This document shows, piece after piece, positions 1 to 24,197 of a DNA stretch of 34,951 bases (position 1 is the first letter of the stretch; each line of letters starts with the position of its first letter). Position numbers and translations under genes: made by a program. The stretch lies in contig JAGAFR010000010.1 in assembly GCA_017612555.1 (NCBI GenBank), positions 1 through 34,951 of the forward strand. The letters run 5' to 3'. The stretch comes from Lachnospiraceae bacterium. Its GTDB lineage: Bacteria > Bacillota > Clostridia > Lachnospirales > Lachnospiraceae. The notes beneath the pieces are model-generated. The model saw nothing but the letters and a program-made list of their open reading frames with translations, was not told where the DNA came from and did no database searches.

Positions 1-2358
1 AATATTTCCGGTGGGACCGTCAATATAACCGAAGAGATCTACGGTGACGGTATCCAGGCCGAGAATGTAAATATCAGCGCAGGTAATGTTAATATCACGA
101 CTGTATTTAACAATGCCGCTGTCGCATATTACACTTCAGGAAGTTCCTCAACCACACTCAACACCATTACAGAGAAGAATGATAAGTATAAGACAGAGAG
201 GATCAATGTCTGTACCGGAGATCACGCAGGTATAAAGGCCGGAACCAAGGCTTCTACGAGAATATACAGTGATCTGAAATCGTCTGATCCGGATAATGCG
301 ACCAAGACATATTCAGCTTCAGGAGGTCTTACCATATCGGGCGGAACCGTTGTAATAGATACTCTCGGGGCGGGGCTTAAGTCAAACAGGGTGACCGGAT
401 ATACTGCATGTGATAACGGTGTATATATAGTTGGTTCGCCGGATGACGCCCTTCATTCAAATAACAGCATGTCAGTAACAGGCGGCACGGTAATCCTGTA
501 CGCATCTGATGATGGTATCACGGCAGCAGGTGATCTGACCATTACGGGGAGTGACACGACAGTTGACATCAGGTCATCTTTTGAAGGGATCGAAGCAGCG
601 AATATAACGTTTGGTACAAGCGGAAGCGAAACAGGACCATCGGTGGCAATAGTATCTGATGACGATGGTATCAATGCCGCACAAAAGACTAATGTCACAT
701 ATGCATATGACAGCAGTGAAAATGAGGATTATAACTACACCAAGACGACGGAGAAGAGCGGCGGAAATAAATGTACCGTGTACAGCGGCAGCGTTACGAT
801 AAACATCGACAGTGCTTCGACTAAGACGAGGATGCTCAGAAACGGAAGTGCTGCTTCAACAAAGAGTGTAACATATATGTCTGACGGCGACGGAATAGAC
901 TGTAACGGAACTCTTGATCTTGAAGGCGGTGTGACAACAGTGTTCGGTGCATCTCCAAGTACGAGCAATTCCCCTATAGATACGGATGAAGGATTTACTC
1001 TTGGTACATCGGCAGTTCTTCTTGCTGCAGGTTCGGACGGAATGAATGAGTCGAAGCCTCAAGATGGTGGTGGAACATACATTTACTACGGCGGAAGCGG
1101 ATCATCCGGGACACCGGGAGTACCCGGGAGCCCGGGAAACCCCGGCAATTTCGGTGGACCTTCAGTACCTGGAAATCCCGGGGGAATGCCGGGAGATGTG
1201 GCAGCCTCGATCAGTGCGGGATCGGTATTTAAGGTCACATCCGGAAACAGTGTGTTAACGGAAACAACAATTCCATATGCGGCTTCGTTTCTGATATATG
1301 CTTCGCCTGCATTGGCAGCGTCGGAATATTTCACGGCTACGCTTAACGGAAGTGCGGTTTCGATGACCAGGGCTTCAGCCGGATCCGTCGGAACTGATGA
1401 TCCTGTAGTACCCGTTTGTCCGATAGGACCGGTATGTCCTGAAGGACCAACAGAACCGGAGCAGCCTGTAGCGACAACACCGGTTAAAAAGATAAAGCTT
1501 AATACAACAAAAGTGTCTATTGGCGTAGGACGCACATATCAGCTCAGTGTTGCTTCAGTGACACCGGCGGATGCGAGCAGCAGAGTAACATGGACCAGTG
1601 CTGACAGCAGCATCGCTTCGGTAGACAAGAATACAGGCATAGTAACTGCGGTTTCGACAGGGCTTAATAAGAAGGGGATACCGAACAAGACGAAAACTGT
1701 TAAGATAACAGCAACTGCATCAGACGGAAGCGGCAAGACCGCCGTGTGCACGGTAACCGTCGGTAATGCCGTAACAGATGTGAACTTCTATGTAAACGGT
1801 GACAAAACAAAGTCTGTCGTAACTGAAGCGGAAGTAGCAAGATCGAAAAAGATAAAACTGATACCTGTGTATACAACCACATACAGTTCCCAGGGAATGA
1901 TCGTGCCGATGAACAAGAAGTTGATCTGGTCAAGCTCCGATGAATCCGTAGCAAAGGTGTCAAACGGAGTAATAACAGGTCTTAAGCGTGGCGAGGTAAC
2001 GATAACGGCCAAGACCGCAGAATATGCCGGCTGTACAGAAGGAGGAGATGTTGTTGCAAACTGTAAGGTAACAGTCATTGTTCCCGTTACTTCCGCGAAG
2101 CTCAAGAAGGTCATATCGATAAAACAGGGAGCGGAGTATGATATGAACCTGAATCTCGTTGTTCTGCCGGCGGATGCACAGTACTCGGTAAAATGGAGCA
2201 CATCAGATGACTCGATCGCATCCGTTGGCGAGAACACGGGAGTTATTACTGCATCAACGCAAAAAACAGGAACTGCAAAGATATCCGCGACAGTGACATC
2301 CACACAGGGTAATTACGTTAAGACCATAACAAAAAATGTTAAAGTCACTGCAAAATAG
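1..2358 (+). CDS. Cthe_2159-type carbohydrate-binding surface protein with Ig-like tail (5' truncated)
   Basis: The frame is open from base 1 to the TAG at 2356-2358, so the gene begins before the window and 785 residues are visible. The first ~360 residues are beta-helix-like and repeat phrases such as SDDGITAAGDLTITG and GDGIDCNGT. This pattern is typical of the Cthe_2159 (PF14262-like) family, whose founding member binds polygalacturonate at the cell surface. Next comes a Gly/Pro-rich linker (residues ~362-400) with Gly-X-Y triplets, and a Pro/Cys stretch around residues 470-487. Three BIG2-type Ig-like domains follow (~495-585, ~585-692, ~692-785), each with a W-[TS]-S-x-D-x-S-[IV]-A core. 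No sortase motif or transmembrane segment is seen at the C-terminus. The stop lies 14 bases inside the 3' end of the convergent peptidase gene. Role inferred: extracellular polysaccharide binding or wall-associated scaffold. Confidence 0.8.
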   Translation, partial: NISGGTVNITEEIYGDGIQAENVNISAGNVNITTVFNNAAVAYYTSGSSSTTLNTITEKNDKYKTERINVCTGDHAGIKAGTKASTRIYSDLKSSDPDNATKTYSASGGLTISGGTVVIDTLGAGLKSNRVTGYTACDNGVYIVGSPDDALHSNNSMSVTGGTVILYASDDGITAAGDLTITGSDTTVDIRSSFEGIEAANITFGTSGSETGPSVAIVSDDDGINAAQKTNVTYAYDSSENEDYNYTKTTEKSGGNKCTVYSGSVTINIDSASTKTRMLRNGSAASTKSVTYMSDGDGIDCNGTLDLEGGVTTVFGASPSTSNSPIDTDEGFTLGTSAVLLAAGSDGMNESKPQDGGGTYIYYGGSGSSGTPGVPGSPGNPGNFGGPSVPGNPGGMPGDVAASISAGSVFKVTSGNSVLTETTIPYAASFLIYASPALAASEYFTATLNGSAVSMTRASAGSVGTDDPVVPVCPIGPVCPEGPTEPEQPVATTPVKKIKLNTTKVSIGVGRTYQLSVASVTPADASSRVTWTSADSSIASVDKNTGIVTAVSTGLNKKGIPNKTKTVKITATASDGSGKTAVCTVTVGNAVTDVNFYVNGDKTKSVVTEAEVARSKKIKLIPVYTTTYSSQGMIVPMNKKLIWSSSDESVAKVSNGVITGLKRGEVTITAKTAEYAGCTEGGDVVANCKVTVIVPVTSAKLKKVISIKQGAEYDMNLNLVVLPADAQYSVKWSTSDDSIASVGENTGVITASTQKTGTAKISATVTSTQGNYVKTITKNVKVTAK
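1084..1200 (+). repeat. Collagen-like Gly/Pro-rich linker coding region
   Basis: This stretch encodes about 39 residues rich in Gly-X-Y triplets such as GTP-GVP-GSP-GNP-GNF, with CCCGGG-rich DNA. It joins the beta-helix domain to the Ig-like domains of the first gene. It is likely a flexible or polyproline-like spacer and is too short to claim a stable collagen triple helix. Confidence 0.6.
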
Positions 2359-5300
2359 TCTTTACGCCCTGACGTTTGATCTTAAACTTTAATGATCTTT
2401 TGCCACCGTATTTGCCAGTTCCTCTGAGCACTACGGTGGCGGTTCCTGATTTTCTGTTGTTCTTATATGACTCCACGTAGAAGTCTTCATCGACGCCCAG
2501 GAAAAATCCCGGGTTGTCTTCGGTCCGTCCGTCGACGAGCAGTTCATTCAGTTCGGAATTACCGAGGGTAATATCCGAGCCTGTGTATGTTTTGTCGGAG
2601 ATCTGCTGCCATAACGGGATATTGGACAGGTCATGAGCCTTGTCGTAATACATATACTTTGCTTGGACATAACCAAAATAGTTGCCTTTTCCGAATATGG
2701 TCGCTCTGATCTGCATGGATCTGTTATCCTCGGACCCTTCTTTTACTATCTCATACGTACCGATCACATAATCTGTATTATTTTTCAGTTTCTTTCCCTT
2801 TTCGTCGGTGATCGTGATATTGGGATTCTCATATCCTTTATCCGGCGGATCCTTGGGCATGAGCTTATCAGCTATATCTACGGTCATCCGGTTTATACTT
2901 GCGGTTACGACATAGTAATCGAGAGTAACACTTCCTTTATACAGACCTTTACCTTTAATGGTCAGTTTGGCGGGATCTTTATCTTGCGAAATCTTTTTGT
3001 TGTTACTGAAGCTTACGGTATAATCCCTGCCTTTCACGAGGTCTTTGTCGCCGTCTTTTACTTCAATCCACGAAGGTATAGCTCCGCTCTTGGAATAAGG
3101 TACATAATTTTGCCAATTATATGTAAAATCACCCTTATCCGGTTCCTGCAGTTCACGGCCCTTTGTTATCTTAAATGTTGCCTTTACACTTCCGGTTATG
3201 CCATTTTCGTTTCCGGGGATTGCCGTAAAGGTCACGGTTGCTTTGCCCGGGTCAGTGTTATTCGAGACCAGGCTTACCTTATAATCGGTGTTTTCCGTAA
3301 GAGAAGTCGGCGTTCTGCCGTCGAGCTTCAGCGAGAGAGTGTACTTACCCGGCTCCGGAACTATAGGTTTACCGGTATAAACGTATGAAGCCGGATTAAA
3401 CACAACCTTGGCATTTTTAAGAAGCTTATTGGTGCTGTCGGTAACCGTAAGACCGGTGGTCATCTTACCGGTAAAGTATGATCGATCTCCCGAGGGCTCT
3501 ATTATGATCGTGTATTGACCGGCCTCAGAAATACTGTCTGTTATCTCTTCCGAACCATCCTTTTGATAGCTGAACTTGAAACTGTTCTTTGCAATCTCTT
3601 TGCCGCCATCACCCGCGTATCTTATTTCCGGCACAGGTTTTATCGCGCTTCCGGTATATGCCGCACCTGTATCGGAAACATTAACACAGGTTTCCTTGGG
3701 ATCGTCGGAGAGGAGAGCCTTGGAGATATTAAACTCTTTCTGATATTTTGGCGTCTCGCTGTATTCGCCCCTGAAAGTTATAGTCAGTACCGCCTTCTTA
3801 CCACTAATATCGGTGGGTTTGTTATTGTTACTGTAAGAGATCTTATAATCCTCACCCTCAGTCATAAGATCCGTGCCGTCGTACAGTTTCAGATCATTCT
3901 GAATGACGGGAGAGCCCCAATAATAGTAGTCAGGCTCAAATCCCACAAGCCGAATGTTTGATGAGATCTTGATGATCCTGCTGTCATCTATGATCCTGCG
4001 GGAGACTTCATTACCGTCGATCTTTTCTGAAATGATCCTTCCGTCATCACTTTCCCCGTTTTCGGTCGTAACTGAGTTGAATCCCTCGGGTATGCTGCTT
4101 ACAGGGATCTTCATTTCGCTGTAGGCGTTGTCGATATTGACATTTACGTTTGAAGAGATCGAATCCATTTCGGGGATGAGATACAGCCACAGATAATGAC
4201 CCGGTTGTACGGTATATACGGTGGGCAGCATATGAATGGTATAGTCATAATACGAACCGGCTGTTATATCACCCTTTACGGCAGAAGCGGGATAATAACC
4301 TGCTTCGGGAGAACCCAGATCGATCACGCCTTTTGTTATGAGTTTTTTATCAACATATGTAGTCGTGTACTCTTCGAGATCAAATGGATCAAGTTTGCCT
4401 CCTCTGTCGATATAATAACTGATCAGGGATGACTTGGACGGAGAATCACTTTCTTTTGATACATAAGCCGGAAACTTATCCGGGGAGATATCATAGAGCA
4501 TTGCACCAAGTACCATCCGGCCTTTTCCGGTTTTCGGTATCTCGGGAACTCCGGCTCTTATACGAACTTCAGCCTTACCCTGTATCGTTATCTCTTCGGA
4601 CACGCGTCGTATCCAGTTCGACGAATAGATCTGTCCGTCTTCGCCAACGCCGTTTTGATCACATTCGATCCCCTCGAAGTAATCATCTATTGAATAGTAC
4701 GGATCGTCACCTGACATCAGGATGTCTTTGCCGGGATCATAAGGTTTATTGTCAGCTGACCCTGTAGCGCCTGATTCGTATGTAGTGTTTTTTTCGGGTG
4801 TTTCGATGGTTATCTGATCATCGTTTCCCGGAGAGAGGGTAATGCTCCTGGAAGTATCGTCACACCAGCTGTCATCGACCCATTCATCATATGCTGCAAA
4901 GCGTCCATCCTTGTTGCTCTGGACATAATACTTGGGAAGTGTGTTCTCTATATCGTTGTTTAAGTCGCAAAGATAACGGCAGTACCATTTATTGAGTATT
5001 TCCTCATAGTAATTATTATCTATTTCGATCGTCTCAAGAGTCTCGTGCCCGCCCTGATGAAGTATCACCCTGACATCGCAGCCGCTTTTTTCAAAGGCCC
5101 TTCTCATAAGGTCGGCCTGCTTGGTGCGGACATTGTAATCATTAAAACCCTGTACGATAAGAGCCGAGGCCTTTATCGTACCTGCCGCCACATCAGAGTA
5201 TTCTCTTTTTGTCCAAAAATCGCCGAAGTGACCTGCAAGGGTTGTTTCGGAAAGGTCAAAATAGCCGAACAGTTTGGAGGCAAGAGAACGAATTGAATCG

Positions 5301-6391
5301 GATTTGGTATCCCTGCCGAAGAATCTGCTCGAGTTATCACCTGAAATACCACCGGTGTATTTGTTTTCTTCATATTGCGCTACACCCTGAGTGTTCGTAT
5401 AAGAGTACCAGCTTGCAATACCGGCTTCGGGTACGATCGTCATCAGTCCGTCAACGCCTGTTGCGGCAACTTCATATGCCATGGTGCCGTTATAAGAACA
5501 CCCTCTCATTGCCACTTTTCCGCTGGCCCAATCGGCAGTAACGGGAATGGTTCCTTCCCTGTCGGCAAATGCCATCCTGCCGTCTTTATGATTTATCCAT
5601 TCAACGACATCTTTGAAGGCTTCAACTTCAGCGATGCTGCCGCACGATGACAGTCCGTCGGAACCGTTCGTTCCAAGCCCTGCGGATTCAACAACGGCAA
5701 ATCCGCGAACAAGGAAATAATCATGATTATTCAGCGCATCAATGAAATAAGTGTTACTGTCTTTGACATTATCATAATGGTAGTACCAGTTGTTTGATGA
5801 AAATGCTTCCTCATTGTCCCGCGAGGCAAGTTCGAGAGATGATATCGCAGGGCATACGGGAGTGTGGTCATTGCCCGCCTTGTAAAGATCATCTTCGGTA
5901 AATCCATCAAGATCTTTTTCTTCTGCGGGTTGTGGTATGAGCTGATCTTTTTCATCATCACTGAGAATGTCTTTTGTACCGGCCATATACGGACTTGCCT
6001 CAAATATGGCAGGAGCTGCATTGGTACCGGCAGCCCGGCGCGGAACCTGAACCACGGCCTGGACAAGATCGTTCATTCCGTCAAGATCCGTATCGTAATC
6101 GGTCTCAACATAAACGGCAAAGCGGAGGATATCACTGTTAGTGTTGGTATATCCGGCTTTGATCTTATTCTTATCCTCCATGTCTATGATCGGCTTAGCC
6201 ATGCCGTCTTCGAAGACCATGTATGAGGATCCGTCTTCATCTACGGCCGGTTCCGTGTCTGCTTCAACAATGACAGGTTCATAGGCGAACTCTTCGGCAT
6301 AGGCATTTACGTCCATGGCCAGAGCGCCGGTCAGTATGGACCAGATGATCAGCCAGGATGTTTTTGATCTTAAACTCTTAAAATGATTCAT
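2345..6391 (-). CDS. Secreted Xaa-Pro dipeptidyl-peptidase-like S15 hydrolase with Ig-like repeats
   Basis: The start is set at 6391, where a GAAGGGAG ribosome site lies 6-7 bases upstream and a signal peptide follows; this gives 1348 residues. Residues 1-~32 are a signal peptide. A CocE/NonD-type alpha/beta hydrolase (peptidase S15) spans roughly 75-480. Visible triad candidates are Ser299 in GCSYNG, Asp418 in GFNDYN and His449 in GGHE. A DxDxDG loop (DTDLDGMND) near residue 100 may bind calcium. A jelly-roll C-terminal S15 domain runs to ~780. About five or six Ig-like modules with the recurring phrase DY-x-V-S-x-x-NN then fill ~830-1348. The family removes X-Pro dipeptides from peptide N-termini. 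The gene is 46 bases downstream of the subtilase on the same strand, so the two probably form one operon for extracellular protein breakdown. Substrate specificity is inferred. Confidence 0.85.
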   Translation of the reverse strand: MNHFKSLRSKTSWLIIWSILTGALAMDVNAYAEEFAYEPVIVEADTEPAVDEDGSSYMVFEDGMAKPIIDMEDKNKIKAGYTNTNSDILRFAVYVETDYDTDLDGMNDLVQAVVQVPRRAAGTNAAPAIFEASPYMAGTKDILSDDEKDQLIPQPAEEKDLDGFTEDDLYKAGNDHTPVCPAISSLELASRDNEEAFSSNNWYYHYDNVKDSNTYFIDALNNHDYFLVRGFAVVESAGLGTNGSDGLSSCGSIAEVEAFKDVVEWINHKDGRMAFADREGTIPVTADWASGKVAMRGCSYNGTMAYEVAATGVDGLMTIVPEAGIASWYSYTNTQGVAQYEENKYTGGISGDNSSRFFGRDTKSDSIRSLASKLFGYFDLSETTLAGHFGDFWTKREYSDVAAGTIKASALIVQGFNDYNVRTKQADLMRRAFEKSGCDVRVILHQGGHETLETIEIDNNYYEEILNKWYCRYLCDLNNDIENTLPKYYVQSNKDGRFAAYDEWVDDSWCDDTSRSITLSPGNDDQITIETPEKNTTYESGATGSADNKPYDPGKDILMSGDDPYYSIDDYFEGIECDQNGVGEDGQIYSSNWIRRVSEEITIQGKAEVRIRAGVPEIPKTGKGRMVLGAMLYDISPDKFPAYVSKESDSPSKSSLISYYIDRGGKLDPFDLEEYTTTYVDKKLITKGVIDLGSPEAGYYPASAVKGDITAGSYYDYTIHMLPTVYTVQPGHYLWLYLIPEMDSISSNVNVNIDNAYSEMKIPVSSIPEGFNSVTTENGESDDGRIISEKIDGNEVSRRIIDDSRIIKISSNIRLVGFEPDYYYWGSPVIQNDLKLYDGTDLMTEGEDYKISYSNNNKPTDISGKKAVLTITFRGEYSETPKYQKEFNISKALLSDDPKETCVNVSDTGAAYTGSAIKPVPEIRYAGDGGKEIAKNSFKFSYQKDGSEEITDSISEAGQYTIIIEPSGDRSYFTGKMTTGLTVTDSTNKLLKNAKVVFNPASYVYTGKPIVPEPGKYTLSLKLDGRTPTSLTENTDYKVSLVSNNTDPGKATVTFTAIPGNENGITGSVKATFKITKGRELQEPDKGDFTYNWQNYVPYSKSGAIPSWIEVKDGDKDLVKGRDYTVSFSNNKKISQDKDPAKLTIKGKGLYKGSVTLDYYVVTASINRMTVDIADKLMPKDPPDKGYENPNITITDEKGKKLKNNTDYVIGTYEIVKEGSEDNRSMQIRATIFGKGNYFGYVQAKYMYYDKAHDLSNIPLWQQISDKTYTGSDITLGNSELNELLVDGRTEDNPGFFLGVDEDFYVESYKNNRKSGTATVVLRGTGKYGGKRSLKFKIKRQGVKTILQ

Positions 6392-6437
6392 GATATTTCT
6401 CCCTTCTGTGAGCTCTGTGTATATCAGCATTTCCTGC

Positions 6438-9400
6438 TTAGAATACCTTGAACGGGATGGTTAGTTTCTTGCCGGATCCGTCCCTTGCTCTGATGTTGAT
6501 CTTTCCCGAACCTTTTTCTCGGATGACCGCGGTTAACCTGTAAAGCTTTTTCCCATCAACGGTCACGTATGATCCCAGCGCTTTTGAAAATCCAATTGCT
6601 TCCGGATTGGTTGAGGAAACCTGGATTATGGTTCTTTCATCCAAACGGTCCGAACCGGATAATTCAACTAAAAATGTAACGTTGTGTACATGATCTTTGC
6701 TTACATTACCGATCTTGGATAAGTCAGCATTATACTCCTTAACTTCAACAAGTTTATTGGATGATTGTATGCCATAACACTTGATACTCTGAGTCGGCTT
6801 TGCCGCATATACGGAATAGGTACCGAGGCAGCCTGTTCCGTCGGTTGCACTTGCACTGACCTTTATGATGAACTTTGAAAAAGCATATCCTTCACCGGCG
6901 CTGTCGGGAACAACGGGTATAAAGTCTGCTTTTTTATTAAGCGAGAGTTTCCCTGAAGAACTTATCGAAGCGAGTTTTTTATCCTTAAACTCTTTTGTCA
7001 TATCAACCACCTGATCGGTTTTGCCCTTGCAGGAAAAGACCGCTGATACGCCAAAGTCCCATGTGAGTTTTGTGATCGTAGGGTTTCCGTAAGTCCGGCC
7101 GGGGGTTGCCGTCAGCTGAAGGCTCTTACCGTAAGCCAGAGCAGCCTGTCCGTCCTTGGTGTTGATCGACACACCTGACATCGGAACGATCGTATTTACC
7201 GAAAAAGTTGCCTTCTTATTGCTTCCGTCCGTAGCGGCAAAAGTGATCTTGGCAGAACCGGCTTTTTTACCGGCTCTTATCACGAATGTGTTTTCCTTTT
7301 CGTCGTATTCAACATGTGCCACGGCAAGGTTACTTGAAGAAAAGCTCAGTCGTGACTGTTCTCCGAGATCCGTACCCGCATCGACAAAGATGGCGCTTTC
7401 ATCCGTATCCTCAGTACTGAGAATATCCACGTTATACAGCCTTACGGAAGAGAGCGTTCCTTTCTTCTCAACGGGCATATGTACTTTCTTTTCATAGTCA
7501 GTCATTGAGGATATTCTTGCTTTTGCAGTCACATTTGTTACAGGGGGTTTTACGACAACTCTGTACTGCGCCGGTGCGATATCATCGTCACCGTTGATCG
7601 ATGCCGTGATCGTTATTTCCGTATCTGCAGGTACATTTTTCTTAACGGAAAGCTTTCCCGAAGAGGAGATGGCAATCCCCGGGACTTCGTTTGCCAGGGA
7701 CCACTTCACACCGTGTTTTTTGAGAAATGAAGGGTCGGCGGGATCCAGTCCTGCGGTAAATGAAACGGACTTACCCGCAGCCGCATATTTGCTTCCGTAA
7801 ATTACCAGTTTAGCGCCGGCAGAGGGTTCGTCTCCGGCAAGCTTTAAGTCCTTGACTGTAACGATCTTGCCTATCGTACCTTTGGCGCTGACATAAGCTG
7901 CTTTTAGAGTAAACGGCTCTCCCGATCCGACACCGGCGCTTACCAGTTCACCGGACCCTATCAACTGATCGTTATCTGCACGGAATGTCCCTTTGGAGCA
8001 AATGCCGTCCTTCATTACGGGATTGCTTCCGTTTACGGTGTACAGATAACCGAATGAACTGATGTTTTCCGGAGCTTCAAAGCGGATCGAAGATCCTTCT
8101 CCAAGCTCGGTACCGGAGGTGAGTTCCCGGAATTCCGTCTCGGAAGCATCTTTTTTAAACTTTATGGAAACGGAAGATGTATCGGGGCTTTTGGCGGTAT
8201 CTTCAAACAATGCTGCGGCATTGACGATGCCGGCTCCGATAAGCTTGTCCGGATTGGCGGTTGCGCTTTTTGTGATCGCATCCCTGACTTCGGAAGGAGT
8301 AGGGTATTTACCGGTCTTTTCATAACAGTAGCTTATATAAAGAGCACATACTCCGGTAACGACAGGTGCCGCCATCGAAGTTCCGTTAAGTGCGGCATAC
8401 CAGTCATTATGATCCACGGAAGAGTACACATACGGATAATTTGTTTTTGCATTATGTCCGTTTACCGTAGAATATATCAATGCCCCCGGAGCGGCTATTG
8501 TTGCATAGCCGTATGTTGAAAAATAAGTGCGATTTCCGTCCCTGTCTACCGCAGCAACGGAGATCACACCGTCATAGCAGGCAGGATACTTGATGATATT
8601 GGTTGCGTCATTTCCGGCGGATGCAACAACAGTAACGTTATTTTCAATCGCCGTTTTTATGGCTTTATCCAGTTCAACGCTGTATTGCGTGTAGCCTAAA
8701 CTCATGTTGATCAGCTGAGCATACGGCTCGCGGTCACTGTCCGCGCATGCTACATATCGTATGGCTCTGCATATATCACTCGTCTGTGTTGTTGCATAAG
8801 TTCGCCCGGAAGAATCTGTTGCTTCTTTGGAGATCGGAACTCCGAGGATGTTGACTCCGGGAGCTACTCCGACACCGCCTTTTTTATTGTTGGGTGTCAT
8901 ACTGATTATTCCGGCCACATGGGTTCCGTGCCCGGCTGTGTCCAGAGGTGTGCCTCCGCCGAGTATCGCGCGAAGATCTTCCTCCGGTACCAATGTCACG
9001 CTTCGAAGGTCATTGGTCATAAGATCCTCATGATCCACATCTACTCCCGAATCGATGACGGCTACGGTGACTTTGTTTGATCCGCGTGTTGTTCCCCACG
9101 CTTCATATGTGCCGATCATATCGTGCATCCACTGATATCCGTTCTTGTATTCGCTTTCAGAAGGTGTTACCACCACGGGCTGATCATTTTGATCATATTT
9201 TATGCTGTGCTCCGCGAATCTGTATTCGGGGTCAAAGGCCGGATCGTCGTACTCCTTTACCACATCCGACCATGACCGGGCAGATGTTGCAGAACCCGTA
9301 AGAGGAGAGGAGTCTGATGATCCGACATAAACTGTTTCGTCATCAGATTCCACCGGTTCTTCAATGGGAACGATATAGACCGGACTGACCGCCGGAAGAT

Positions 9401-9806
9401 CAGTTAACGGATCTGCGCCTGCAGCGACTGCCTGTGCAACGGTAACTTCCGGATCGGTGAGCACTGCAACGGCAATGCCGTATGCGTAAGATTCGAGCTC
9501 GGCATTATATGCTGCCGCAACTTCTTCGGCGTACTCCTGTGAATCTGCGGAATACATGATCCTGTCCCGGACGTAATCAACATCCGGTGTAAGAGAAGCA
9601 ACGGTGCCCGCAACGTCATGTTCGAGATTTGCAGCCTTATCATTGATATTTTCTTCACTCAGTACAAATCCCTGATCCATTCCCGGCAGACCGAAGGGAA
9701 GGTCGGAAGATTCCTCGGCCATAACGGGTATGCCGTTTGACAATATCAACGCAAGTATCAGCAGAACCGCCCCCGCTTTCTTAACGTAACCCATTGATCC
9801 GTTCAT
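6438..9806 (-). CDS. Secreted subtilase (peptidase S8) with C-terminal Ig-like domains
   Basis: Two in-frame ATGs lie close together (9812 and 9806). AAAGGAG sits 3 bases before the first and 9 before the second, so 9806 is preferred (1122 residues). A signal peptide ends near residue 29. An acidic propeptide-like region precedes the catalytic domain (~240-535). The full subtilisin triad is visible: Asp252 in VIDSGVD, His293 in GHGTHVAG and Ser477 in NGTSMAAP, with oxyanion Asn399 in ASAGND. About 580 further residues form a chitobiase/Fn3-like module (~545-650) and several BIG2-like modules with GKLS phrases. There is no sortase signal or membrane anchor. The enzyme should be an exported endoprotease, perhaps wall-associated through its tail. 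It is the first gene of a minus-strand operon with the X-Pro peptidase and has its own promoter at 9849-9878. Confidence 0.92.
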   Translation of the reverse strand: MNGSMGYVKKAGAVLLILALILSNGIPVMAEESSDLPFGLPGMDQGFVLSEENINDKAANLEHDVAGTVASLTPDVDYVRDRIMYSADSQEYAEEVAAAYNAELESYAYGIAVAVLTDPEVTVAQAVAAGADPLTDLPAVSPVYIVPIEEPVESDDETVYVGSSDSSPLTGSATSARSWSDVVKEYDDPAFDPEYRFAEHSIKYDQNDQPVVVTPSESEYKNGYQWMHDMIGTYEAWGTTRGSNKVTVAVIDSGVDVDHEDLMTNDLRSVTLVPEEDLRAILGGGTPLDTAGHGTHVAGIISMTPNNKKGGVGVAPGVNILGVPISKEATDSSGRTYATTQTSDICRAIRYVACADSDREPYAQLINMSLGYTQYSVELDKAIKTAIENNVTVVASAGNDATNIIKYPACYDGVISVAAVDRDGNRTYFSTYGYATIAAPGALIYSTVNGHNAKTNYPYVYSSVDHNDWYAALNGTSMAAPVVTGVCALYISYCYEKTGKYPTPSEVRDAITKSATANPDKLIGAGIVNAAALFEDTAKSPDTSSVSIKFKKDASETEFRELTSGTELGEGSSIRFEAPENISSFGYLYTVNGSNPVMKDGICSKGTFRADNDQLIGSGELVSAGVGSGEPFTLKAAYVSAKGTIGKIVTVKDLKLAGDEPSAGAKLVIYGSKYAAAGKSVSFTAGLDPADPSFLKKHGVKWSLANEVPGIAISSSGKLSVKKNVPADTEITITASINGDDDIAPAQYRVVVKPPVTNVTAKARISSMTDYEKKVHMPVEKKGTLSSVRLYNVDILSTEDTDESAIFVDAGTDLGEQSRLSFSSSNLAVAHVEYDEKENTFVIRAGKKAGSAKITFAATDGSNKKATFSVNTIVPMSGVSINTKDGQAALAYGKSLQLTATPGRTYGNPTITKLTWDFGVSAVFSCKGKTDQVVDMTKEFKDKKLASISSSGKLSLNKKADFIPVVPDSAGEGYAFSKFIIKVSASATDGTGCLGTYSVYAAKPTQSIKCYGIQSSNKLVEVKEYNADLSKIGNVSKDHVHNVTFLVELSGSDRLDERTIIQVSSTNPEAIGFSKALGSYVTVDGKKLYRLTAVIREKGSGKINIRARDGSGKKLTIPFKVF

Positions 9807-9848
9807 GAACATAAGCTCCTTTCAGTGCTTTTGAAGAGTTAGATTTAT

Positions 9849-20004: not shown

Positions 20005-21516
20005 ATGAAGACTTTTGTAAAAAACTCGGAAAAGGTGTATGTACGTTTCGCATTAGGTTTCCTTAGGAGTTTCCTTCCGGTGCTTCTCTGTGTTTTGCTG
20101 GTAGGAGCCGACACCGTCTCGGCATGCACCACGATCATTGTGGGTAAGAAAGCCTCCGCCGATGGCAGTATCATATTCGGCCGTACGGCAGATACCCACG
20201 GGCTCAGTCCGGTCCGTTTTGAGTACCGGGAAGCACGGGAAGATGGCGCCTTCTTTACAGACCCTTCCAACGGGTTTTCATGCCCTCTGCCGGGGAACGC
20301 CTGCGGCTATCTGACCATGCCCGGTATTGACATCGGAACCAACGGCAGCTGGGATGAAGCTACCATCAACGACCATGGCGTCTGCATCAGCGCCACGGAA
20401 AGCATATATACCAACGATAAGGCAAAAGCAGCGGATCCCTTCGTGGATAACGGCATCGGTGAGCAGTCAATTCATGCCGTGACCGCACCTTACGTGCATA
20501 CAGCCCGTGAGGGTGTGGAATACTTGGGAAAACTGATCGACAAGTACGGTAACGCAGATGCAGGCAACGGTGTTATCTTCGGTGACCGGGACGAGGTTTG
20601 GTATATGGAGATCTATGCCGGTCACCAATGGGCAGCAGTCAGAATTCCCGACGATTGTTATGTTATCGCGCCAAATGATGGCCGGATCGGGGAAATCGAC
20701 GTTACGGACACGAAAAACGTGATCGTTTCCAAACATCTGGTGGATCTTGCAAAGAAAGGCGGATTCTTCGTCGGAAACGGGAATGTTATCGACACCACCC
20801 GCACCTATTGTACGGAGCTTAGGAATTACAGCCAGATCCGCGCCTGGGAAACTCAGCGCAGATTCAGTCCTTCATTGACGTCCAAAACCTACGATGTCAA
20901 TACATATTATCCTTTTGCCCTGAAGCCGGATAAGAAGATAGGTCTGGAGGATGTAATGGAACTGTGCCGTTGGCGCTACGAAGGCACTGAATACGACGTG
21001 AATGAGCATCCCGATGTTCGGGCCATTGGTATCAATCGGACCCGGCAGACCTCCATATTCTGGCTGCGTCCAAATAAACCGGAGATCATGTGGAACTGTT
21101 TCGCCAATCCGGAGATGAGCGTCTTCCTTCCGATGTACAAGAACACCAAGGTGTTCCCGGAAGCCTACAGCATAGCTCCGTCTCAAACCTATGATGAGCA
21201 GGCGGCTTACTACCGTTTCTTGCGGACCGGCATTCTTGCTGCCGATGATCGCGAAGGATTCGGAAAAAAGGTTCGCAAAAGCTGGAAAGACATGCAGAAA
21301 GATCTGATCGATAAGACGGAAGATCGGGATAGGGATTACATGGCCAATAGCTGCAGCGATGGTGCCGCGGCCCGGATTTTTGACTCCGTTGGCACGAAAG
21401 CCCTGGAGCAGGCGGATCAGCTTTACTTTGAGGGCATGTCAGACTGGCTGAACGCCCGTATGCAGGACGGCGGATCCGATTCTCCGGATGCCGCTTACGA
21501 GAATATTACCAATTAA
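20005..21516 (+). CDS. C69 family dipeptidase (Ntn hydrolase), exported
   Basis: This is a 503-residue protein starting after GAAGGAGAG. A signal peptide runs to about residue 40 (ending TVSA), directly followed by Cys41 of CTTIIVGKKA. In C69 peptidases the mature N-terminal Cys is the nucleophile. The N-terminal block (ADGSIIFGRTAD) and the later GEQSIHAVT, GDRDEVWYMEI and TSIFWLRP phrases match the family. It should hydrolyse dipeptides, probably outside the membrane given the signal sequence. Arginine codons here are often CGG/CGC and third-position G/C is common (GGC, ACC, GCC). Flanking genes prefer AGA/AGG and GGA, so the gene looks transferred. It sits between an intact response regulator and the relic of another regulator's 3' end. 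A role in trimming the RiPP encoded next door is possible but unsupported. Confidence 0.88.
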   Translation: MKTFVKNSEKVYVRFALGFLRSFLPVLLCVLLVGADTVSACTTIIVGKKASADGSIIFGRTADTHGLSPVRFEYREAREDGAFFTDPSNGFSCPLPGNACGYLTMPGIDIGTNGSWDEATINDHGVCISATESIYTNDKAKAADPFVDNGIGEQSIHAVTAPYVHTAREGVEYLGKLIDKYGNADAGNGVIFGDRDEVWYMEIYAGHQWAAVRIPDDCYVIAPNDGRIGEIDVTDTKNVIVSKHLVDLAKKGGFFVGNGNVIDTTRTYCTELRNYSQIRAWETQRRFSPSLTSKTYDVNTYYPFALKPDKKIGLEDVMELCRWRYEGTEYDVNEHPDVRAIGINRTRQTSIFWLRPNKPEIMWNCFANPEMSVFLPMYKNTKVFPEAYSIAPSQTYDEQAAYYRFLRTGILAADDREGFGKKVRKSWKDMQKDLIDKTEDRDRDYMANSCSDGAAARIFDSVGTKALEQADQLYFEGMSDWLNARMQDGGSDSPDAAYENITN

Positions 21517-21547: not shown

Positions 21548-21580
21548 TTATGGGGAATGGGATACAGATTTGAAGCGTGA
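21548..21580 (+). pseudogene. Relic of a response-regulator 3' end
   Basis: Read in frame, this stretch encodes LWGMGYRFEA and a TGA stop, matching the end of the regulator at 19270-19944 (IWGMGYKFEA, stop). Of the ten codons from TGG to TGA, five differ only synonymously and one is a Lys/Arg change. Diverged coding sequence explains this better than chance. A TAA at 21533-21535 closes the frame upstream, so only a tail remains. The TTG start of the radical SAM gene lies inside it, and its purine-rich GGGGAATGGGA now serves as that gene's ribosome site. Confidence 0.65.
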
Positions 21581-22928
21581 AGAAACATCAGAAAAAAAGA
21601 GTATCCGAACCGCTGGCGAGGCGGGTTGGCATATCTCCGGATATAACCTGAAGTTAAAGGTTCCCGATTCACATGATACTATAATCGTGAACCTGTACAA
21701 GGGAACATGTGCAGTATATAACCCGATCGAGATGTTTCTGTTATCGATCCTCAGCGAGCTTAAAGAAGATCATCCGATCATACCTCGTTTCGCAGATCGG
21801 GGCATAATAGCGAACTTTGATGAACGATCAGCGCTTGAAGCAATGGCTCGCGGAGGCTGTATGTTCTTTTCCGACATCAGTCTGACTATCTGTCCCACCA
21901 TGAGTTGTAATTTTGACTGCCCGTATTGTTTCGAGGATCACAGAGAAGGAAAAATGAGTGCCGGGGTTCAGGATGACGTGGTTGCCCTTGCGGAACGTCT
22001 CCTGGATTTTTCCGGTGCAAAGTCTCTCAGAATAAGCTGGTATGGCGGCGAGCCTCTTCTGGCAGCGGATGTGATCGAATCTCTTTCGCAACGTCTGATA
22101 AAGCTTGCAGATAAAAAAGGTGTTTCTTACGGGGCAAGTATCGTTACCAACGGTTATCTGCTTACATCGGAAAATATCGATATGCTGGTCAAAAGCGAAG
22201 TTTCAAGTGCTCAGATCACACTTGACGGAGTCGGAGATGTACATGATCTGACCCGGCATTTGGCCGGAGGAGGACCGACTTTCCGGCGTATCATTGACAA
22301 TATCAGCAACAATAAGATCCCATTCAAGATAAGCATACGTCATAATGTTCATAAAGATAATTTGAACGAAATAAACGGGTTAAGGGGGCTGATCGAAAGG
22401 ATCTCTGAAGAAAGCGGAAATGATCTTAAGTATTATCCTTCACCGGTCCGGGACAATGATGCCGCAGCAAGGCGCGGAAAACAGGTGAATCTGCTGTGCG
22501 GCTCTGACATGCATGATATCGACATACTTAAGGATTCAGCACCTTTTTTTGCGGGACGCGGGGTACACTGTGTAGCGAATATGGGACTGAGTATGTGTAT
22601 TGATGATAGGGGAAATCTGCTGAAGTGCTGGGACGATGTAGATAAGGCCGATCGCAGTTTCGGAAATGTGGCCGGATGGGACCCCGAAGATCCGATAGGT
22701 ACTGCCACATCGCCCGATAATCTTACGTCTTACCTCAACACTTCGGGAGCATTGGATGATCCCGAATGTCAGGAATGTATCTGGCTTCCGGCATGTGCGG
22801 GAGGGTGTCCGCATCAGAGGCTGTATTATGAGAAATCGTGCATTCCGTTTAAGGATTGTCCGGAGGAGTATGTTCTTGCTCTTTACAGGAGGATGAATGA
22901 GCGAACTCAACAACAGAAAAGCGTTTGA
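21570..22928 (+). CDS. Radical SAM/SPASM peptide maturase
   Basis: A TTG at 21570 is the only plausible start; it overlaps the response-regulator relic. The 452-residue protein has an N-terminal ~100-residue region like those of RiPP maturases. The radical SAM cluster motif is C-x3-C-x2-C at Cys113, Cys117 and Cys120 (MSCNFDCPYCFED). A GGEPLL motif lies near residue 159. The C-terminal SPASM domain has many Cys (334, 343, 353, 400, 403, 409, 413, 424, 430), enough for two auxiliary iron-sulfur clusters. Such enzymes form thioether or C-C crosslinks in ribosomal peptides (sactipeptide/ranthipeptide type) by abstracting a hydrogen from the substrate. The next gene overlaps it by 32 bases, and a Gly-Gly leader precursor lies just beyond. 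Crosslink type is inferred. Confidence 0.9.
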   Translation: MKREETSEKKSIRTAGEAGWHISGYNLKLKVPDSHDTIIVNLYKGTCAVYNPIEMFLLSILSELKEDHPIIPRFADRGIIANFDERSALEAMARGGCMFFSDISLTICPTMSCNFDCPYCFEDHREGKMSAGVQDDVVALAERLLDFSGAKSLRISWYGGEPLLAADVIESLSQRLIKLADKKGVSYGASIVTNGYLLTSENIDMLVKSEVSSAQITLDGVGDVHDLTRHLAGGGPTFRRIIDNISNNKIPFKISIRHNVHKDNLNEINGLRGLIERISEESGNDLKYYPSPVRDNDAAARRGKQVNLLCGSDMHDIDILKDSAPFFAGRGVHCVANMGLSMCIDDRGNLLKCWDDVDKADRSFGNVAGWDPEDPIGTATSPDNLTSYLNTSGALDDPECQECIWLPACAGGCPHQRLYYEKSCIPFKDCPEEYVLALYRRMNERTQQQKSV

Positions 22929-23910
22929 ATTGTTGTGTGCTTTCTGCGGATCAGGCGGCAAGGCAGAGACTCTTTTTGGAGAAGATATCAAACGGCTGCC
23001 CGAAAGGATCGGACCGTTCTTGAATACTGATCCGTTTCCGAGCATTCATCTTGAGTTTCCGTTGCTGGGAGAACCCTTTACGGATGTTACGGTCCTTTAC
23101 AGGGACATAGAAGCGGGTATGAGGATAAAATCGGAAGCTGTGGGGGATACAGGCTCCCTTCTTGACTGGTATGCGGATGTGTGCCGTAAATATCCGAGAA
23201 TATGCTTCGGTTTTGAGTTGGACAGTGCACTTGATCATAAAAAAGCGGCTTTTGGTTTTCAACCGAGAGAATCCGAAGAACTGGTCAGACCTTTTTGCAA
23301 GATCACAGGAACCGTTTTACAGGGTGAGCACTATCTGAGGGCGGCGCAGAAGATGCCGGCAAGATGGCCGCTTTCGTATTTTGGTGTATACCCCGGAAGG
23401 GATAATGCCCCGTTTCGTGTCTGTGGATACTATGATAGAAGAGAGCTGTCATCGCATGATATTTCCCCTGAAAAGATCAGGGCTGATCTTGACACCATAG
23501 GTTTTCGTTCATATGATGCTACGATGCTTGAGCAGATATCAAAGATCCTGTCACTTGAAGTCAATGCGATCGACTTTCAGTTTGATATTTGTCCTGATGA
23601 GAGCTTCGGTGATGTATTCTCGCTTGATGTGCAGCTTAAGGAAATGGGGTCGGCTAAGGTCAGTGAAGCTTTTGAAAGCGGAGTGTCTGCCGAGGTCATG
23701 AGCATACTCAGATCATGGGGGATCGCCGACGGGCGAACATCGATGATCAAGAAAACATCCCTGTCGCGAGGTATTAAAGTGATGAGCGAAAATGATGGTA
23801 TGATCGACTATGCACTGATATGTAAGCCGGAATGGATAAAGATCAGATGGAAGAGTTGTAAGCTCCAACCTTCCAAATGCTACTGCTTACTGTATGCAGG
23901 AAAGCTATAG
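22897..23910 (+). CDS. Unknown protein coupled to the radical SAM maturase
   Basis: The ATG at 22897 is inside the 3' end of the maturase gene (32-base overlap), with ACAGGAGG four bases upstream. The product is 337 residues, soluble, with no signal peptide or membrane helix. I do not recognise the family. Visible features are Cys14 and Cys17 (CAFC), alternating beta-rich phrases such as SIHLEFPLLGEPF and FGFELDSAL, a central YFGVYPGRDNAPFRVCGYY segment, a hydrophobic-acidic strand AIDFQFDICPDE, and a Cys-containing C-terminal tail. Translational coupling to the maturase points to a second modification enzyme, a recognition/scaffold subunit or an immunity factor for the same peptide. It ends 2 bases from the convergent precursor gene. 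Confidence 0.8.
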   Translation: MSELNNRKAFELLCAFCGSGGKAETLFGEDIKRLPERIGPFLNTDPFPSIHLEFPLLGEPFTDVTVLYRDIEAGMRIKSEAVGDTGSLLDWYADVCRKYPRICFGFELDSALDHKKAAFGFQPRESEELVRPFCKITGTVLQGEHYLRAAQKMPARWPLSYFGVYPGRDNAPFRVCGYYDRRELSSHDISPEKIRADLDTIGFRSYDATMLEQISKILSLEVNAIDFQFDICPDESFGDVFSLDVQLKEMGSAKVSEAFESGVSAEVMSILRSWGIADGRTSMIKKTSLSRGIKVMSENDGMIDYALICKPEWIKIRWKSCKLQPSKCYCLLYAGKL

Positions 23911-23912
23911 TA

Positions 23913-24197
23913 TTAAAGCATCGGCCAGTAAGGAATGCAGTCGGGAGCGCTTGCGGCGTAGCAATGACTGCAATTTCCGCCGCTCAAAGCCTTCAGCTGT
24001 TCTTCGCTCAACTCGTAGCCGTATCCATCGATGAGCTTCATCAGCTCTTCGTCTGTCGAGCAGTTCATCAGTCCCTCTGCAAGAGCATTCAGCTGGTCAT
24101 CATTAAGATCGAGCCCTGAGCTTTTGGCCAAATCCTTCATGGATTCGTCGAATCCGTTTTCTTTTGCCTTTTCTTTAAGTTCATCCAACAATCCCAT
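23913..24197 (-). CDS. RiPP precursor peptide with Gly-Gly leader and Cys-rich core
   Basis: The ATG at 24197 has GGAGG six bases upstream, giving 94 residues. Residues 1-74 form an acidic helical leader that ends ELSEEQLKALSGG, a double-glycine cleavage site like those of Nif11-type and other bacteriocin leaders. The 20-residue remainder starts N-C-S-H-C-Y and has Cys76, Cys79 and Cys87, a P-D-C-I-P-Y-W-P stretch and no charge-rich tail. One more Cys (46) is in the leader. Core Cys residues are the expected donors for thioether bonds by the neighbouring radical SAM enzyme. The gene faces the maturase operon with its stop only 2 bases away and has its own promoter. No C39 peptidase or ABC exporter is in the window. 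The Nif11-like assignment is from general pattern only. Confidence 0.75.
   Translation of the reverse strand: MGLLDELKEKAKENGFDESMKDLAKSSGLDLNDDQLNALAEGLMNCSTDEELMKLIDGYGYELSEEQLKALSGGNCSHCYAASAPDCIPYWPML

Follow-up and report, generated by a model that had tools for sequence, protein, structure and literature searches.

The window analysed here, a 34,951-nucleotide stretch of contig JAGAFR010000010.1 from a Lachnospiraceae bacterium (assembly GCA_017612555.1), carries a genuine locus for a ribosomally synthesized and post-translationally modified peptide (RiPP) of a known broad kind, combining a radical SAM/SPASM maturase with a Nif11 leader. The locus comprises the peptide maturase R (452 aa; 21570..22928, forward strand; identified from its open reading frame (ORF), Pfam and NCBIfam models and alignment), protein P (337 aa; 22897..23910, forward strand; ORF and 39-sequence alignment) and a Nif11-type precursor convergent with both (94 aa; 23913..24197, reverse strand; ORF, Pfam and a precursor model). 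The genes, their homologues, their linkage and their co-occurrence in genomes are directly observed. We posit that they encode a two-enzyme pathway in which R would introduce thioether crosslinks and P would act as a second tailoring enzyme, most likely an aromatic prenyltransferase of the ABBA type, a reading to which we assign a probability of about 0.46. P represents an undescribed RiPP-associated protein family and is the more novel part of the locus.

An earlier note made from the sequence alone (the original prediction) had described a SPASM radical SAM maturase, an overlapping protein and a convergent precursor, and all three ORFs lie where it had placed them. ORF reading also confirmed the 94-residue precursor it had described, with a leader ending in ALSGG (residues 1–74; 23976..24197, reverse strand) and, directly after the Gly-Gly, a 20-residue core with three Cys, NCSHCYAASAPDCIPYWPML (23916..23975, reverse strand; C2, C5 and C13, with Y6, Y16 and W17). 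The precursor scores 24.3 bits against Pfam Nif11 (PF07862; cut-off 23.8), which assigns it a Nif11 leader domain, and 29.8 bits against NCBIfam leader_Nif11 (TIGR03798), under the cut-off of 32.3. A model built from 70 precursor rows from other loci, excluding the window, was scored against 302 window ORFs of 30–220 aa and returned this ORF at E 4.4e-19 and the next best at E 5.1; the precursor call is thus beyond chance, since an independent model singles out this ORF. The leader contains a tandem repeat of residues 17–42 (24072..24149, reverse strand) and 49–74 (23976..24053, reverse strand), with a score of 49 against a shuffled mean of 21.3 (p 0.0004), the second copy being the segment most often matched by the precursors of relatives. 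Neither the Nif11 leader type nor the repeat figured in the original prediction, which had left the overlapping protein unassigned.

P starts with ATG at 22897 and overlaps R by 32 bp (22897..22928, forward strand), its ribosome site AGGAGG (22887–22892) lying inside the 3′ end of R, so that the two genes are coupled by overlap and probably also in translation. The precursor starts with ATG at 24197, with GGAGG six bases upstream, and the start of R (TTG) is uncertain because no clear ribosome site precedes it. Only 2 bp separate the stop codon of P from that of the precursor; a strong terminator or structure was not detected in this gap, and RNA folding between the two genes was no better than shuffled (z 0.30). 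The GC content of the locus and its surroundings is alike. No C39 domain was found on the window's contig, and the genome has three, all on other contigs. No lanthipeptide or lasso domain was present among the subset of window ORFs scanned, and a lanthipeptide or lasso reading of the window was rejected on this basis.

R carries the motif CNFDCPYC (CX3CX2C) and matches Pfam Radical_SAM (PF04055) at 56.6 bits, above the cut-off of 29.5. Its SPASM cysteines (C334, C353, C400, C403, C409, C413 and C424) are invariant in 30 aligned R sequences, 26 of which match the SPASM model TIGR04085 at 1e-10, and the N-terminal ~100 aa are presumed to bind the leader. Against the TIGR04463, Clo7bot, CefB, FlmE/OhkG and PapB models, all 30 proteins reach E 1e-10 or better. 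The best NCBIfam model for R itself is TIGR04463, a radical SAM/SPASM RiPP maturase family (E 1.9e-61), yet its 208.2 bits against a cut-off of 525 place R outside that equivalog; Clo7bot, CefB and PapB follow at E 9.8e-55, 4.2e-43 and 4e-29, all far below cut-off, and with 101.9 bits against 340 R also falls outside the PapB family. R is a member of an unnamed SPASM maturase clade. Neither this clade nor P is described in the titles and abstract openings of the literature matches listed, a coverage that leaves out most subscription papers.

Relatives of R were collected by scanning genome contigs, and the best 80 of 140 loci, 45–60% identical to R over the best segment, were used for locus counts. 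By record title their hosts are mostly ruminant metagenome-assembled genomes (MAGs), Eggerthellaceae, Atopobiaceae, Coriobacteriaceae and their kin, alongside some Clostridia and further taxa. In the tree built from R, the window pairs with L080, an Erysipelotrichaceae-labelled MAG, with modest support (82). Within the window's genus, R relatives occur in 5 of 37 genomes (E 1e-20) including the window's own, the other four being distant or partial. A genome of the same genus holds a possible remnant (G029:C8:93296-93568), in which 91 residues of a 125-aa frame show 55% identity to the C-terminal portion of R. R relatives were also found at 20 loci in viral contigs, the best being 45% identical to R and located on a 60-kb IMG/VR contig filed as viral (L126).

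Gene neighbourhoods lend good support to the original prediction of a radical SAM RiPP locus with a precursor of the Gly-Gly type. It had named a lack of co-occurrence between precursor and maturase homologues in related genomes as grounds for its rejection; this did not apply, a precursor having been detected no more than 3 kb from R in 36 of the 80 loci. Over the same distance P was found in 22 loci, and both in 13. Among 55 precursor–R pairs within 1.5 kb (counted over the 80 loci plus the window, L106 and L107), the precursor is on the same strand upstream in 21 and downstream in 14, convergent in 12 and divergent in 8; the convergent arrangement stressed by the original prediction is therefore true of the window yet not peculiar to it. 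Overlapping or directly adjoining R and P genes were seen in the window and in L080, L021, L029, L040 and L054, the overlap in L080 being 32 bp as in the window. P often occurs as two neighbouring paralogues, and many R loci contain ABC transporter genes resembling the C39-containing one of L081, often two in tandem.

The association of P with R extends to whole genomes, searched at E 1e-10 for P and 1e-80 for R. P occurs in 5 of 197 Coriobacteriia genomes and R in 4, all among those five (each draw comprised 197 genomes with the same handles listed). All six genomes reached via R loci carry P, including three (L037, L016 and L072) in which P is absent from the R locus itself, and P was found in all eight distinct close-R genomes searched for it. 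Elsewhere P is rare: within the window's family it was detected in 4 of 299 genomes using a single sequence and in 3 of 275 using a profile, the window's own included, in 1 of 291 genomes of its class (the window's own) and in 1 of 296 Actinomycetota genomes (the Olsenella used as centre). No P was found in phage records or, with a single-protein query, in viral contigs, and neither L126 nor other R-carrying viral contigs gave a match.

P also occurs away from R. Of 15 stretches around P genes in P-carrying genomes, examined for R and for Nif11 precursors, one contained R (L160), four a Nif11-type precursor (L152, L154, L159 and L162) and ten neither. In L152 and L159, which derive from two genomes and contain no R, P stands beside precursors with the identical core AWYNCMNETW. 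Plasmid pNP243 of the type strain Butyrivibrio fibrisolvens D1 encodes a P homologue (24% identity, E 1e-17) that keeps the invariant polar and aromatic residues and opens a RiPP-like gene run (L147:8950-13774) of two ABC ATPases, a short Cys/Trp ORF, PqqD and a putative S24/S26 peptidase. On its other side are an asparagine synthase, a second PqqD and a lasso-like short ORF, and no radical SAM protein is annotated near it in the 19 kb shown. Because P occurs without R beside precursors and in the B. fibrisolvens run, we regard it as a RiPP protein in its own right rather than a subunit of R. These neighbourhoods suggest that it is probably a tailoring enzyme of its own, which would act independently of R on the same type of leader-core peptide.

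Among 39 aligned P proteins, 19–41% identical to that of the window, E53, L56, D63, R168, R174, G202, Q228, D278, R280, K315 and Y329 are invariant and K327 nearly so, and no Cys or His is invariant. A pentein-type enzyme was considered for its fivefold repeat and rejected, as such enzymes need Cys or His; a self-comparison of the P profile revealed no significant repeats. The ABBA plan consists of five beta hairpins separated by helices. Hydrophobic periodicity indicates beta-like stretches in P at 49–56/61–66, 104–111/118–124, 170–177, 201–204, 223–234/242–248 and 313–319/325–332, four of them close pairs, and a Chou-Fasman reading adds a stretch near 160 and intervening helices, giving a five-hairpin look. 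As controls, four DMATS sequences showed three close pairs (72–82/87–93, 143–152/157–166 and 202–208/211–219) and single stretches at 37–43, 302–311, 369–376 and 389–393, and R showed twelve beta-like stretches with one close pair (102–106/111–119). The conserved E, D, R, Q, K and K-x-Y residues alternate along the beta-like stretches of P, and in ABBA enzymes such residues line the diphosphate-binding lumen. With paired beta-like stretches between helices and invariant polar residues, P therefore resembles ABBA prenyltransferases; we put its being one at a little under even odds, and it may thus serve to attach a lipid to the peptide.

Core composition points weakly in the same direction. Trp is present in all nine unique cores encoded within 300 bp of P, in 8 of 10 at 300–3000 bp and in 24 of 36 without P within 3 kb (first versus last class, p 0.044), and Trp falls in the last six residues of 5 of 9 cores near P versus 5 of 36 (p 0.017); these comparisons draw on few, partly shared cores and were selected with the data already in view. 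The set derives from 64 precursors, deduplicated to 55, after exclusion of 15 hits (four from L104/L105, five with cores >60 aa and six with no recognised Gly-Gly). In the window, P would most likely alkylate a Trp or Tyr of the core, namely W17, Y16 or Y6.

The thioether step attributed to R draws on its family and on core statistics. These were computed on a set from which L104, L105, cores >45 aa and those without Cys or a recognised Gly-Gly were excluded (50 cores, 42 after deduplication), with expected counts from 1000 within-core shuffles (lowest possible p 0.001). CX2D is present in 20 of the 42 unique cores versus 8.8 expected (p 0.001), an enrichment that persists under the most stringent deduplication applied (14 of 33 cores against 6.6 expected, p 0.004), and CX2D is a new substrate regularity of the R clade. 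Neither the reverse motif DX2C (8 of 42, 8.8 expected) nor CX3D (3 of 42, 8.2 expected) is enriched, and CX3C occurs in 20 of 42 cores where 10.4 are expected. Asp stands at +3 from Cys 30 times versus 9.5 expected, and Tyr 11 times versus 4.6 (p 0.005, uncorrected for the many offsets and residues). PapB joins Cys to Asp or Glu within CX3D (PMC9413430). Given the CX2D enrichment and the kinship of R to PapB, the simplest inference is therefore a Cys-Asp thioether with one residue fewer between, which suggests that R-clade cores carry such crosslinks spaced unlike those of PapB. R would bind the Nif11-type leader and tie the core with at least one thioether crosslink involving Cys. For the thioether-type product of the original prediction, the RiPP locus stands and the thioether is plausible only, given model matches below cut-off and the CX2D enrichment. 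The window core lacks PapB-type CX3D and holds CX2Y (C13–Y16). Following modification, cleavage behind the Gly-Gly would remove the leader, and a C39 peptidase ABC transporter supplied elsewhere in the genome would export the product. The list of cores compiled at R loci was confined to precursors lying no more than 3 kb from R whose cores measured ≤45 aa. Near-identical precursors with the core MMWGDVCVGVACKVCRGYKGCK[VC]Y were observed on five contigs of four MAGs (L018:7639-7848, L028:5753-5962, L033:4093-4302, L035:9466-9675 and L050:2163-2372).

A comparable combination of enzymes is known from the MppC/MppE system, in which the ABBA-type enzyme MppC requires the leader to geranylate a core Trp of a lanthipeptide with a Nif11 leader (PMC12715784). 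Both systems pair a Nif11-like leader with a ring-forming enzyme and a second soluble enzyme, which in the window would be P. In the MppC system a lanthionine synthetase forms the ring, a step presumably carried out here by the radical SAM enzyme. P is proposed to have the barrel of the cyanobactin F-type prenyltransferases and DMATS enzymes; its sequence shows no significant similarity to DMATS or PDB chains. More broadly, no ABBA subfamily covered by the DMATS profile, PDB and Pfam/NCBIfam comparisons, which did not extend to cyanobactin enzymes, showed significant sequence similarity to P. Even among known ABBA enzymes, those of the cyanobactin type have little sequence similarity to the others (PMC13290415).

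Several observations weigh against the prenyltransferase pathway. No Pfam or NCBIfam model matched the 39 P proteins better than E 0.03, a PDB sequence search with P gave a bile salt hydrolase at E 1.5 as its best hit, and a PDB search with P alone gave no match of note. Comparison of the P profile with a DMATS profile of four actinobacterial proteins yielded a P-value of 0.053 (0.047 for a re-cut profile), and scores this high were also reached by 3% of column-shuffled and 18% of block-shuffled decoys (150 of each); being no better than decoys, this comparison was not used as evidence. Its failure is itself weak evidence because the control profile reaches DMATS-type entries only, none named cyanobactin or NphB-type. 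The Trp association weakens to 17 of 19 cores with P within 3 kb versus 24 of 36 without (p 0.06), and a narrower filter gave 13 of 13 versus 20 of 29 (p 0.022), both filters having been chosen after the cores were seen; since the link is weaker in the wider set, the odds of a prenyltransferase were lowered slightly. A Nif11 precursor was undetected in 11 of the 15 P stretches, and a search next to 11 such precursor-less P loci for small ORFs that encode Trp and follow a ribosome site yielded nothing convincing. Neither P nor a precursor lies within 3 kb in 35 of the 80 R loci, only 14 of which have less than 3 kb of sequence on a side. One of the five Coriobacteriia P genomes (G565) has no R at E 1e-80, no P was found in G025, a genome of the window's genus with a distant R relative (28%), and the presence of P changes 18 times on the R tree against a shuffled mean of 22.7. 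The window core itself lacks CX2D, and its crosslink sites therefore cannot be named.

The same linkage and co-occurrence evidence would equally fit a pathway in which R makes thioethers and P is a second tailoring enzyme of a new, non-prenyltransferase kind, a reading also favoured by the missing sequence link between P and known enzymes and by the weak Trp link in the wider set. We consider it rather unlikely, given that the spacing of the beta pairs in P and the conserved E, D, R, Q, K and Y residues upon them resemble ABBA enzymes. The overlap of P with R and the frequent adjoining paralogues could instead indicate a non-enzymatic helper of R, such as a peptide chaperone or a leader-binding partner for thioether formation. 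This appears improbable considering that P stands next to precursors without R in the stretch (L152 and L159), that a homologue belongs to a PqqD gene run with no annotated radical SAM protein, and that the many polar residues conserved in P are in keeping with an active site.

An immunity or target-binding role for P would be in keeping with its presence in all eight close-R genomes searched, sometimes away from R, but strict conservation of polar residues across 19–41% identity fits an enzyme better, and we regard such a role as very improbable. Equally slight is the chance that the locus in the window is decaying or idle, having no adjoining exporter, a stretched duplicated leader and a core off motif. 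The contig without a C39 domain, the leader repeat, the core without CX2D and the few R relatives in the genus, distant or partial apart from the window's own, are consistent with decay, and they are countered by three open frames, good ribosome sites for P and the precursor, intact catalytic motifs and the three C39 domains elsewhere in the genome. Building on the prenyltransferase pathway, we tentatively propose, as a broader and on balance doubtful extension, a new lipidated RiPP class of gut anaerobes in which R would form Cys-X2-Asp thioethers and P, a sequence-isolated ABBA branch often present as paralogous pairs, would prenylate Trp and would also have been co-opted, in the absence of R, for Nif11 peptides and a PqqD operon in Butyrivibrio.

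The locus brings two things to light: a SPASM maturase clade, as yet unnamed, whose substrates show a legible pattern, CX2D, and a family of undescribed proteins that accompany RiPP precursors in Coriobacteriia, in Clostridia and on a B. fibrisolvens megaplasmid. Should P be a prenyltransferase, some gut radical-SAM peptides would be lipidated and a new peptide-prenylating tool may exist; should it not be, P would represent a new RiPP enzyme or helper. The genes are present in the named strains Olsenella intestinalis KCTC 25379, Lachnospiraceae AC2029 and B. fibrisolvens D1, which makes these readings testable.

A second, more complete RiPP cluster is encoded in the window's own genome (G000 contig C70; L104:4271-13717), with three NHLP-type Gly-Gly precursors, a radical SAM maturase and two ABC genes. 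It resembles the window locus in its Gly-Gly precursors, Cys-containing cores and SPASM-like radical SAM protein (35% identical to R over the match), but differs in its NHLP-type leaders, its two tandem ABC transporter genes and the absence of P; one of the genome's three C39 domains is located in it. A survey of rumen bacteriocins in the Hungate1000 collection reports many ranthipeptide clusters, and its main text does not contain the terms Nif11, AC2029, Olsenella, prenyl or radical SAM (PMC13289728). Immediately upstream of R on the same strand, the window encodes a C69-family dipeptidase (20005-21516, forward strand) with no sign of pathway membership. Further away, two very large peptidase genes, S15-type (1361 aa) and S8 subtilase (1124 aa), adjoin one another at 2345-9812 on the reverse strand.

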